DNA from: Alistipes sp.
Lineage (GTDB): Bacteria > Bacteroidota > Bacteroidia > Bacteroidales > Rikenellaceae
Length of the DNA: 42,758 nucleotides
Direction: 5' to 3'
Assembly (NCBI GenBank): GCA_017629985.1
Contig: JAGBWD010000014.1
Location: forward strand, 1-42,758
Made by a program: the position numbers and the translations under genes. This document shows, one piece after another, positions 11,437 through 15,768 of the stretch. Under the pieces are notes generated by a model. That model was not told the DNA's origin, searched no databases, and saw only the letters and a list, made by a program, of their open reading frames with translations. The first letter of the stretch is position 1. Each line of letters opens with the position of its first letter.

Positions 11437-12546
11437 GTGAGGTTAATACCATCAATACCAGGTTACAGAACTCTTGATCGTTATATTCTCAAGAAGTTCC
11501 TGATGACATATATTTTTGGTCTATTGATGATGTCTGTCATCATCGTTGTCTTCGACTATGTGGAGCGTGTTGATGACTTTACGGAGTTGCATGCTCCTGT
11601 AGATGCTATCATCTTTGACTATTATATGAACTTCATCCCTCATCTTGTGAACCAGTTTAGTGCGTTGTTTACCTTTATCTCGGTAATCTTCTTCACCTCG
11701 AAGCTGGCTATGCAGACCGAGATTGTTGCGATACTCTCGGGTGGTGTGAGCTTCAGGCGCCTTATGTGGCCATATATGCTTGGCGCAGGTATCATCGCTA
11801 CAGTGAGTCTCTCGTTGAGTTTGTGGATAATCCCCGAGGGTCAGAAGGATAGCGTAGCATTCCAGGCGCAATATTTCAAGGGTAACCAGCTCATAGATTA
11901 CGATGAGCATATCTATAGACAACTCGAACCAGGCACCTATGCCTACATCCGTGGCTACTCACCTGGCACAGGGCGTGTGCCATTCTTTGCCATAGAGCGT
12001 TACGAGGGTTCGGAGATGGTAGAGGTGTTGAATGCCGCGAGTGCAACATTTGAGGAGGAGACAGGACGTTGGACAGCCCCACGATATGTGATATACACAC
12101 GTGGTGAGGATGGCACTATGGGCTATGAGCAGTTTAGAAATCTTGATACACTTATTAATCTAGAGGCTAGGGAGTTAGCAGGTACAAAGGGCCTTGTGAA
12201 AACCCTTACATTCGATGAGCTTAATGATTTCTATGTTCAGCAGCACCATAAGGGCTCTGATGACCTTTTCCTTATCGAGGTGGAGCGTCACACACGCTTC
12301 TCTTACCCCTTCTCAACATTTATCCTGACGCTTATAGGTGTATCTGTGGCATCGCGTAAGGTGCGTGGAGGTATGGGTATGCACATCGGCTTGGGTATCA
12401 CGCTATGCTTCACATATATCATGCTTGGACGAGTCTTCGAGCAGATTGCCCTTGGTGGCACGATGCCTCCATGGCTGGCGGTGTGGATTCCAAATATTGT
12501 CTTTGCGTTCATAGCTATCTACGTTTATATTAAAGCTCCAAAATAG
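11437..12546 (+). CDS. LptF/LptG-family permease (YjgP/YjgQ)
   Basis: Inner-membrane subunit of the LPS exporter, which passes lipopolysaccharide from the LptB ATPase to periplasmic LptC/LptA. There are three N-terminal membrane helices: one after DRYILKKF, one around HLVNQFSALFTFISVIFF and one around LGAGIIATVSLSLSLWII. A periplasmic beta-jellyroll domain follows (about 135-270), then three C-terminal helices beginning near FSYPFSTFILTLIGVSVASR. The VASRKVRGGMGMHIGLG segment is typical of the family. The start is a GTG 20 bases after tgt; the next in-frame ATG would cut into the first helix. No second permease is present in the window; LptC is encoded separately at 23886-24818. Whether it acts as LptF or LptG is uncertain. 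Confidence 0.9.
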   Translation: MRLIPSIPGYRTLDRYILKKFLMTYIFGLLMMSVIIVVFDYVERVDDFTELHAPVDAIIFDYYMNFIPHLVNQFSALFTFISVIFFTSKLAMQTEIVAILSGGVSFRRLMWPYMLGAGIIATVSLSLSLWIIPEGQKDSVAFQAQYFKGNQLIDYDEHIYRQLEPGTYAYIRGYSPGTGRVPFFAIERYEGSEMVEVLNAASATFEEETGRWTAPRYVIYTRGEDGTMGYEQFRNLDTLINLEARELAGTKGLVKTLTFDELNDFYVQQHHKGSDDLFLIEVERHTRFSYPFSTFILTLIGVSVASRKVRGGMGMHIGLGITLCFTYIMLGRVFEQIALGGTMPPWLAVWIPNIVFAFIAIYVYIKAPK

Positions 12547-12548
12547 AC

Positions 12549-14678
12549 ATGCTTACTATTAATGATATATCGGATGCTGTTCGCCGCGGTGAGCGTATCA
12601 CCACCGAGGAGGCAAAAATCTTATGGACGGAGGCTCCTCTATGGCTTCTTGGAGAGCTAGCCTCGGAGCGAAAGCGTCAGGCTAGTGGTGATGCTGTTTA
12701 CTACAACCGCAATGTACACCTGGAGCCTACAAATATATGCCTCTTTAACTGCGAATTTTGCTCGTTTAGGCGCCGTGAGGGGGACCCCGATGCGTGGTAT
12801 ATGTCGCTCGACGAGATTGAGGCTCGTGCCAAGGAGCTGCGCGGTGCAGATATCACCGAGGTACATATCGTAGGTGGCGTACATCCCAAGCACGACCTAG
12901 ACCTATATTGTGCCATGATACGCCGCGTGAAGAGCGCCTTACCACATGTCACCGTAAAGGCATATACGGCAGTGGAGATTTTCTATATGATACGTCATGC
13001 TGGGGTATCCATAGTTGAGGGCCTACGCCGCCTAAAGGAGGCAGGCATGGAGTGTATCCCTGGTGGTGGCGCCGAGATTTTTGATGCCACGCTACGTCAG
13101 AAGATATGTCCCGATAAGTGTAGTGCCGAGGAGTGGCTGGCAGTACACCGTGCGGCACACAACATGGGCATCGCAACAAACTGCACGATGCTCTATGGAC
13201 ATATAGAGACTCTTGAGCAGCGCATAGACCATCTAGACCGCCTGCGTAAGCTGCAGGATGAGGCCCCAGGTTTCGATGCCTTCATACCGTTGAAGTATCA
13301 TAGTCGCAACAACCGTCTGTCGGAGGCTGGGGAGTGTAGTGTGGAGGATGACCTACGCATGATTGCCATGAGTCGTATATTCCTCGATAATATCCCACAT
13401 ATCAAGGCATACTGGGTCTCTTATGGTCGTGCAACAACAGAGATGGCTCTGATGTTTGGTGCAGATGATATAGATGGTACTATTGGTGATACCACCAAGA
13501 TATACTCTATGGCTGGTGGTGTGCCACGCCCCTCTATGAGTGTCGCCGACTTGGAGGCTATGGTTGCTGCCGCGGGGTTCTGCCCCGTAGAGCGAGATTC
13601 GCACTATAACATCGTGGAGCGTGATAGGGATAACTCTGCTGCGGAGGATGTGGTTACAGAGCAGGAGAGAGAGATTCCACAACAAGAGAATGAAGATATT
13701 ATGCAGAAAGATACTAAAAGAGAGACGCCAAGGCGTAAGGCTACACCCAAAAGCAAGGATGGCTTCTTCGCACGAATAAAGAGTTTTTATGGCCGCAGGC
13801 CTATTATTTCGCACATCATACTTATCTGCCTCTTTGGACTATTGCTAATCTTTGGCCTCAATATAGGCCTTAAGCGTGGCACACGTCTAGGAACAGCAAT
13901 CGAGGTGCCTAATATGTTGGGTATGAACGTAGAGGAGGCTCGAAGATTGGCCGATATAGAGGATTTTCGTATCGTTGTCCGCGACTCTATATTTGATGTA
14001 GACCTCCCTGGAGGTACGATTGTCGATCAGCTCCCGCACACCTCTGCCGTGCGCAATGTTATGGTGAAGCCAGGACGTAAGATTTATGTCACTATAAATG
14101 CCTACAATCGCCGTGTTGTAGATATCCCATTTGTTGCAAAGCAGACGTTGCGTCAAGCAATAAACCAGCTGGAGCGTGCCGGGCTTACCGTTGCGGAGAT
14201 TATCTACGAGCCAGATATGACATCTACAGACTATGTCCTTCAGCAGTATGTAGATAATACGGAGATACTACCTACTACGAAGCGTAAGTGTTATGTGGGT
14301 ACGGGTGTTACCCTTGTGGTGAGCTATCGCTATGAGGAGCAGAGAGCCTATGCACCACGCCTTACGGGGTTGTCGCTACAGCAGGCGAAGGGAGCATTGT
14401 GGGATAATGGCCTTAACGTGGCACGTGTAGTCTACGATGATAGCATCGAGGATATCGTATCGCAGCGTAAGGCAAAGGTATATAGCCAATCTCCGAAGCT
14501 CGGAACGGCGATGAGTCGTGGCGAGGAGGTGACTATCTACTTAAGTTGCGATGAGCGACTTATCGACTCTATGAATGTCGTTGCACAGCAGGAGCAAAAG
14601 GCCTTTGAGAAGCAGCACCGTGAGGCGATGGAGGAGCCTGCAGATTCTCTAAATAATGAGACCGAATTTTATGAATAG
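12549..14678 (+). CDS. mqnE: Aminofutalosine synthase (MqnE) fused to a membrane-anchored PASTA-repeat protein
   Basis: Residues 1 to about 362 are a complete radical-SAM MqnE, which makes aminofutalosine from a chorismate-derived enolpyruvyl-benzoate in the futalosine menaquinone route. The 4Fe-4S cysteines are C64, C68 and C71 (NICLFNCEFCSF), with VHIVGGVHP, KAYTAVEI and PGGGAEIF as MqnE-type motifs. After an acidic linker (about 363-400) comes a basic stretch, one membrane helix (about 418-440) and three PASTA-like repeats (about 451-518, 519-595 and 600-676; first repeat EVPNMLGMNVEEARRLAD). The second half matches the stand-alone PASTA protein that I recall upstream of rluD-type genes in Bacteroidota, and an rluD-type gene does follow here. 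The frame is continuous, with no stop or shift. An in-frame ATG at 13701 could start a separate PASTA product. It begins 2 bases after the permease stop. Confidence 0.9.
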   Translation: MLTINDISDAVRRGERITTEEAKILWTEAPLWLLGELASERKRQASGDAVYYNRNVHLEPTNICLFNCEFCSFRRREGDPDAWYMSLDEIEARAKELRGADITEVHIVGGVHPKHDLDLYCAMIRRVKSALPHVTVKAYTAVEIFYMIRHAGVSIVEGLRRLKEAGMECIPGGGAEIFDATLRQKICPDKCSAEEWLAVHRAAHNMGIATNCTMLYGHIETLEQRIDHLDRLRKLQDEAPGFDAFIPLKYHSRNNRLSEAGECSVEDDLRMIAMSRIFLDNIPHIKAYWVSYGRATTEMALMFGADDIDGTIGDTTKIYSMAGGVPRPSMSVADLEAMVAAAGFCPVERDSHYNIVERDRDNSAAEDVVTEQEREIPQQENEDIMQKDTKRETPRRKATPKSKDGFFARIKSFYGRRPIISHIILICLFGLLLIFGLNIGLKRGTRLGTAIEVPNMLGMNVEEARRLADIEDFRIVVRDSIFDVDLPGGTIVDQLPHTSAVRNVMVKPGRKIYVTINAYNRRVVDIPFVAKQTLRQAINQLERAGLTVAEIIYEPDMTSTDYVLQQYVDNTEILPTTKRKCYVGTGVTLVVSYRYEEQRAYAPRLTGLSLQQAKGALWDNGLNVARVVYDDSIEDIVSQRKAKVYSQSPKLGTAMSRGEEVTIYLSCDERLIDSMNVVAQQEQKAFEKQHREAMEEPADSLNNETEFYE

Positions 14679-15768
14679 TAACGAAAAATATATCGAAGAC
14701 GAGCTACTAAATGATGTAGATATCGAGAACCCCGAGGGTGATGGCGAGGGTGATGAGATGTACGAGCATTTTGCCGTGACCGTAGATAAGGGACAGTCGC
14801 AGATGCGTCTTGATAAGTTCCTTACCATACGTCTTGAGAATACCTCACGTAATCGCATACAGACAGCTGCCGATGGTGGTAATATCCTGGTAAATGGTAA
14901 GCCCCAGAAGTCTAGTTATAAGATTAAGCCTCTCGACCAGATATCTATCGTGATGCCATATCCTCGCCGTAAGGAGGAGATTGTGCCAGAGAATATCCCT
15001 TTGGATATTGTCTACGAGGATGATGATATTATTGTGGTAAATAAGGCTGCAGGAATGGTTGTTCACCCTGGCGTAGGCAACCATAGTGGAACACTTGTCC
15101 ACGCCTTGTCGTATCATCTGAAGCACCTCGAGATGTTTAGCGAGGGAAATGCTCGTGCAGGCCTTGTGCATCGTATCGACAAGGATACCTCGGGTTTGCT
15201 TGTAGTGGCGAAAAATGAGAAGGCTCACGCACATCTTGCAAAGCAGTTTTTTGACCATACCATCTATCGCCGCTATGTGGCCCTAGTATGGGGAAATCTT
15301 GCTGATGATGAAGGTACTATCATCGGCCATATAGGTAGAAATCCGAAGGATAGAATGCAGATGTATGTCTTCCCTGATGGTGAGGAGGGTAAGCATGCAG
15401 TGACACACTTCAAGGTTCTCCGCCGTTATAACTATGTTACGCTTGTAGAGTGTCGTCTGGAGACAGGACGTACACATCAGATTCGTGTACACATGTCATG
15501 GCAGGGTCATCCACTCTTCAACGATGAGCGTTATGGTGGCGACCGCATCCTTAAGGGTACTACATTCCAGAAATATAAGCAGTTTATCGAGAACTGCTTT
15601 AAGCTCATTCCACGTCAGGCCCTTCACGCCCGCGCCTTGGGTTTTGTGCATCCCAGCACAGGGGAGTATGTGCAGTTTGAGTCGGAGATGCCCGAAGACT
15701 TGAAGGCTGTACTTCAAAAGTGGGAGGGGTATACCGCCTCCACAGGTCTAGACTTGGATGAGATTTAA
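14671..15768 (+). CDS. RluA/RluD-family 23S rRNA pseudouridine synthase
   Basis: Isomerises uridines in 23S rRNA (E. coli RluD makes 1911, 1915 and 1917); the exact sites here are inferred only. After an acidic N-terminus there is an S4 RNA-binding domain (MRLDKFLTIRLENTSRNRIQ), then the catalytic domain with HRIDKDTSGLLVVAKN, which holds the catalytic Asp. The RTHQIRVHMSWQGHPLFND motif is also present. Two ATGs are possible. The one at 14671 overlaps the previous stop by 8 bases and is preferred; 14656 would add five residues. Length 365 aa is slightly long because of the N-terminal acidic tail. Confidence 0.93.
   Translation: MNSNEKYIEDELLNDVDIENPEGDGEGDEMYEHFAVTVDKGQSQMRLDKFLTIRLENTSRNRIQTAADGGNILVNGKPQKSSYKIKPLDQISIVMPYPRRKEEIVPENIPLDIVYEDDDIIVVNKAAGMVVHPGVGNHSGTLVHALSYHLKHLEMFSEGNARAGLVHRIDKDTSGLLVVAKNEKAHAHLAKQFFDHTIYRRYVALVWGNLADDEGTIIGHIGRNPKDRMQMYVFPDGEEGKHAVTHFKVLRRYNYVTLVECRLETGRTHQIRVHMSWQGHPLFNDERYGGDRILKGTTFQKYKQFIENCFKLIPRQALHARALGFVHPSTGEYVQFESEMPEDLKAVLQKWEGYTASTGLDLDEI

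Follow-up and report, generated by a model that had tools for sequence, protein, structure and literature searches.

A single reading frame in the genome of an Alistipes sp. joins the menaquinone enzyme MqnE to a transmembrane PASTA protein, and this frame probably yields two products: a membrane-tethered MqnE-PASTA protein and a free PASTA protein translated from an internal start codon. The fusion itself is real and old and no assembly slip. It is beyond chance because the uninterrupted frame recurs in 37 species of a single clade, whose linkers differ widely in length.

The fused frame and its domains

The window, i.e. the whole stretch of DNA analyzed here, comprises 42,758 nucleotides. 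The features relevant to the fusion are as follows.

11437 to 12546, forward strand: LptF/LptG-type permease gene preceding mqnE; 2 nt separate the end of its stop from the mqnE ATG
12549 to 14678, forward strand: fused mqnE-PASTA frame encoding the long product; 709 codons, ATG to TAG; open in 37 clade members
12549 to 13622, forward strand: MqnE part, residues 1-358; radical SAM and CofH_C
12738 to 12761, forward strand: codons of the cluster motif C64-x3-C68-x2-C71; invariant in 13 aligned fused proteins
13623 to 13802, forward strand: linker, residues 359-418; an acidic half, then a basic half
13681 to 13715, forward strand: region around the inner ATG, -20 to +12, resembling a start context
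13701 to 14678, forward strand: nested in-frame PASTA gene, ATG = M385, 325 codons; putative short product, its production being inferred
13803 to 13859, forward strand: predicted membrane helix; the 19-residue stretch of highest hydrophobicity, beginning at about residue 419, by hydropathy only
13899 to 14546, forward strand: three PASTA stretches; for the first two, borders were drawn by eye
14355 to 14546, forward strand: third PASTA stretch, residues 603-666
14656 to 15768, forward strand: RluA/RluD-type pseudouridine synthase gene

The 3' end of the fused gene overlaps the start of the RluA/RluD-type gene, whose ATGs at 14656 and 14671 both precede the end of the fused gene's stop codon. 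A first-pass annotation of this DNA had described a single uninterrupted MqnE-PASTA frame, which was borne out: all 709 codons are open, and the same frame is found in 37 species of the clade. The domain search that it called for was carried out; the Radical_SAM, CofH_C and PASTA profiles matched, and the MqnE model scored best in its family, one bit below its cut-off. Pfam placed Radical_SAM at residues 59-232 and CofH_C at residues 240-357; PASTA (PF03793) reached 81.1 bits as compared to a gathering score of 23.2. Two PASTA stretches were detected at E ≤ 1e-3 with the whole protein, and three at a loose threshold with the C-terminal part alone. One membrane helix and three PASTA-like repeats, as annotated at first, were thereby seen by hydropathy, on which alone the position of the predicted helix is based, and by loose-threshold Pfam matches.

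The cysteines C64, C68 and C71 and the motif PGGGAEIF had likewise been noted; they are present in the window and invariant in all 13 aligned fused proteins. A linker that is first acidic and then basic was confirmed for the window, but in several relatives the linker is rich in Pro, Lys and Glu or in Ala and an acidic half is not clear. Apart from the fused gene, the genome (83.8% complete) contained only MqnC and a weak radical SAM protein as matches to the fused protein, and no second PASTA copy was found in it.

Integrity of the MqnE part

MqnE, the aminofutalosine synthase, acts early in the futalosine route to menaquinone. The best NCBIfam model for residues 7-356 was MqnE (TIGR03700) with 433.5 bits, one bit below the curated cut-off of 434.55; the competing models MqnC and CofH scored 344.4 and 308.2 bits, respectively, on the same protein. 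Both the CX3CX2C iron-sulphur motif and the conserved MqnE core are present. Residues 8-356 can be aligned with aminodeoxyfutalosine synthase (6xi9/6xig) at E = 3.8e-108; unlike the fused protein, this enzyme is a 419-residue chain without membrane helix or PASTA repeats.

Near-invariant MqnE columns were defined on 100 other rows, and 101 of 101 were kept in at least 90% of the 36 fused rows. Decay of MqnE after the fusion was ruled out on these grounds, despite a long stem branch of the fused clade. The length of this branch was 0.47 changes per column in a 99-row tree and 0.36 in a 113-row tree. The MqnE sequence underwent much change at about the time the fusion arose, though the near-invariant columns were kept.

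Further genes of the futalosine route were found in the genome. The MqnC gene scored above its cut-off (432.2 as compared to 428.1 bits), and two genes of the MqnA/MqnD family (PF02621) were detected, neither of which was assigned to a named NCBIfam family. Across the 37 clade genomes, at least one PF02621 match was present in all and two matches in 29. Because the enzyme core is unaltered and MqnC is encoded in the genome, MqnE is probably active.

Distribution of fused and split genes

Of 180 genomes surveyed in the genus, 114 gave a strong match, and in 112 of these the two genes could be read as neighbours; left out were G010, with the two genes on different contigs, and G103, with no PASTA seen in the stretch. 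Among these 112 loci, 38 were fused and 74 split. One gut Alistipes clade accounted for 37 of the fused loci, and the remaining one (G465) stood separate. The clade member G118 was placed by identity and left out of the tree, its locus being cut by a contig end.

In a 113-row MqnE tree (37 fused, 76 split) 36 fused sequences formed a clade with an SH-aLRT value of 100. Three split species, G075, G017 and G451, were nested inside this clade (SH-aLRT 99); a 99-row tree with bootstrap agreed on both the fused clade and the nested loss (100/100). The fewest changes are three: a gain on the clade stem, one loss in G075, G017 and G451, and a gain in G465. In the nested fission lineage MqnE ends and PASTA is open from an ATG downstream of the stops; one locus (L203 of G451; the others are L086 of G075 and L087 of G017) seems to retain a linker remnant before the stop. 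The survey of fused versus split forms proposed in the first-pass annotation thus showed close relatives to be fused and more distant ones to be split; that close relatives all carry two separate genes, by which the fusion was to be refuted, did not hold.

A separate genome scan gave 18 loci. Twelve of them (L056-L066 and L073) showed one frame of 709-814 codons, all from 'Alistipes sp.' assemblies of cattle, yak, buffalo, sheep, goat and deer hindgut, and several of these lie on the same contigs as genomes of the genus survey, hence they are no independent evidence. Three further Alistipes loci (L067-L069) have a stop after MqnE, and three from other groups were left unclassified.

Outside the genus, no fusion was found in the 26 MqnE loci fetched (two from the same family); PASTA adjoined MqnE in 19 and was absent beside MqnE in seven. 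In a sample of 295 genomes of the order, all MqnE open-frame values of at least 600 among the matches listed were fetched, and the long values outside the genus turned out to be split genes in the fetched loci. Fusions of LptG with MqnE, PASTA with RluD, or LptG with PASTA were not seen in 101 plus 40 loci; they only appeared as such because the open-frame value joins frames across a stop. A TAG within the match of G035 lies at the end of PASTA and does not break the frame.

Proposed origin and products of the frame

Translation from the ATG at 12549 would give the long protein, composed of MqnE followed by a charged, flexible linker, a single membrane helix and PASTA repeats that face outward, and this protein would hold MqnE at the cytoplasmic side of the inner membrane. 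The nested in-frame ATG at 13701 would give the ancestral free PASTA protein. The arrangement would have arisen once, in the ancestor of one Alistipes clade, when the mqnE stop was lost beside a co-directional PASTA gene; the linker would then have grown, with the PASTA start retained. Tethering may bring aminofutalosine synthesis near the membrane-bound late steps of the pathway.

Two products are suggested by the open linker and the start signals taken together: separate proteins alone would lead to stops in the linker, fusion alone to decayed start signals. Domain order and general knowledge would place the long form in the inner membrane with MqnE inside. The membrane-tethered MqnE of the first-pass annotation follows from the domain order and would fit selection for an open frame. 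Its expectation of one protein of about 80 kDa is probably incomplete, as the conserved inner ATG suggests a second product.

The inner start codon

Where the genes are split, MqnE usually terminates near 'YNEI', with the PASTA ATG a short way behind it and 9-57 residues before the helix (72 of 74 loci of the genus were measurable). All 37 fused clade members have an in-frame ATG 24-80 residues before the helix, located at 13701 in the window; in each of them it sits where PASTA begins in the split relatives. A matrix for scoring starts was trained on the 72 split-gene PASTA starts. With 437 ATGs from within MqnE as reference, the best linker ATG lay above their 99th percentile in 28 of 37 members and below it in nine. 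Ranked among all positions of its own linker, it was in the top 10% in 24 members and outside in 13 (median 5%, combined p 4e-9). Such p-values are overstated because the species are related. At position -3, A was found in 17 and G in 18 of the 37 members, and A at position -6 in 20.

Bacteroidota ribosomes work without reliance on Shine-Dalgarno pairing. Codons for K, E and Q ended in A in 43% of cases in the eight codons before the inner ATG and in 42% in the six codons after it, as compared to 22% over the remaining linker, 9% in PASTA and 7% in MqnE. Taken one by one, 25 loci show this excess and 11 do not. The mean predicted folding energy was -4.2 kcal/mol around the inner ATG and -5.9 at the mqnE start; it was -12.7 in other parts of the linker and -14.9 within MqnE. 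Synonymous shuffles that kept the protein constant gave mean z values at the inner ATG of +0.87 for openness and +1.32 for A content; the corresponding values at 271 control linker positions were -0.17 and -0.28. In most tests the candidate ATG was the best-scoring one; in 21 loci with a single candidate the signal was weaker, yet it persisted (p 7.5e-4 and 2.2e-3, with 16 and 19 of the 21 loci positive). The inner ATG of the window itself has a clear A-count z of 1.73 and a folding energy of -3.0, its structure z being only 0.14. Initiation in Bacteroidetes depends on upstream A and low structure, as stated in PMC6847099, and the A content and low structure at the inner ATG fit the initiation rules given there.

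Taken over the clade, an in-frame ATG is conserved in 37 of 37 members, and its context is strong in 24-28 of them. A clear exception is G086 (L096) with a poor context (rank 93/95, energy -15.3). Also weak by rank are G464 (48/86), G461 (28/66), G025 (23/51), G105 (23/80), G065 (23/91) and G004 (46/179). G086 has, 25 codons downstream of the inner ATG, a GTG whose surroundings are rich in A and weakly structured; the inner start may have shifted to it.

These data bear on the possibility that the long MqnE-PASTA protein is the sole product and the inner methionine a relic or an ordinary residue. Such a protein would alone supply both parts, the open frame is strongly constrained, and the inner ATG of G086 is devoid of a start-like context. 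However, a methionine 20-85 residues before the helix occurs in 37 of 37 linkers as compared to about 27 expected at their overall methionine rate, A-rich synonymous codons and low structure exceed the shuffles, and the three nested species with stops between the parts still have PASTA open from a later ATG. We consider a sole long product unlikely. The linker ATG is kept in 37 of 37 members, and most of these show a start-like context around it, so that the fused protein is probably accompanied by a free PASTA protein of about 325 residues.

Under the two-product reading, the nested starts might provide free PASTA mixed with MqnE-bearing PASTA, the two forms assembling together. This extension appears rather doubtful. 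If true, it would anchor aminofutalosine synthesis where the envelope grows or next to the late, membrane-bound enzymes of the quinone pathway, and the frequency of ribosome starts inside the frame would tune the enzyme dose of this membrane station.

The linker is kept open

In the fused clade, 21-145 codons separate the end of MqnE from the inner ATG. No stop was found in the 2039 codons of this piece at 37 loci; the other two frames contained 78 and 185. The piece includes 733 codons that are one step from a stop, and under neutrality about 83 stop gains would be expected on the terminal branches of 36 genes; these genes were chosen as fused, the fair observed count for the whole clade being one fission lineage. 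The residues themselves evolve fast: dN/dS in the five closest pairs was 0.27, 0.08, 0.17, 1.07 and 0.40, with no constraint in one of the five. Judged by these sequence counts, the stretch before the inner ATG is under constraint to stay open; neutral drift would give dozens of stops.

The same counts speak against two working proteins with a useless fusion, in which PASTA is made from its own start and the MqnE tail is tolerated or cleaved after translation. Separate genes are viable, as seen in the nested fission lineage of three species, and the linker residues diverge fast; the single fission lineage in the clade is, however, set against the roughly 83 neutral stop gains, and we regard this explanation as improbable. 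The genome assembly is incomplete, but a stop or indel missed in the window is hardly credible; for the clade this is refuted, because the same open frame recurs in 36 further genomes whose linkers vary in length. The joint of a few codons in G465 could be such an error. This locus (L209) is a separate in-frame joining of mqnE and PASTA, either a fresh fusion or a sequence error.

Relation to known systems

The closest counterpart is the split row mqnE - PASTA - rluD of other Alistipes and other Bacteroidales, with the same genes, order and strand. Its PASTA start lies close behind mqnE and shortly before the helix, as does the inner ATG; unlike the fusion, the split row has a stop after mqnE, no linker extension and presumably a soluble MqnE. 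PASTA Ser/Thr kinases (NF033483) share PASTA repeats behind a helix (75-80 bits), but the fused protein lacks a kinase domain and scores far below the cut-off of 450.

In-frame genes within genes that give a full-length and a C-terminal product via an internal start are described for RpnL/RpnS and Cas10d/Cas11d in PMC10327210. The likeness lies in two products from one frame, the second being putative here. In these systems the short product acts on or with the long one, whereas the putative short product of the fused gene corresponds to an older gene, once separate, that was captured when it became fused to a metabolic enzyme. No description of an MqnE-PASTA pairing was found in the open-access literature searched; a search of PMC4746308 gave no mention of Alistipes, and the fusions shown in it are MenI/MenY. 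Internal in-frame starts are already known, and the MqnE-PASTA pairing is undescribed in the papers searched.

At this locus two genes have fused naturally, and the second one seems to have kept its own start through the life of the clade; one later fission serves as a control. It provides a direct test case for starts of Bacteroidota ribosomes inside an actively translated frame, and a further one for whether a soluble quinone-pathway enzyme gains from a tie to the membrane. Annotation of one protein per frame would miss the putative second product.

Genus members without a strong MqnE match

A match to MqnE at E ≤ 1e-100 was missing in 66 of the 180 genus genomes; of the 70 genomes with a completeness of 90% or more, 33 lacked it. 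A PASTA match was kept in 14 of 15 such genomes checked; hence, PASTA outlives mqnE. Furthermore, in 14 genus genomes without strong MqnE just one PF02621 match was present, and a weaker one (E 1e-17 to 1e-35), which may reflect partial loss of the pathway or another use of this family.
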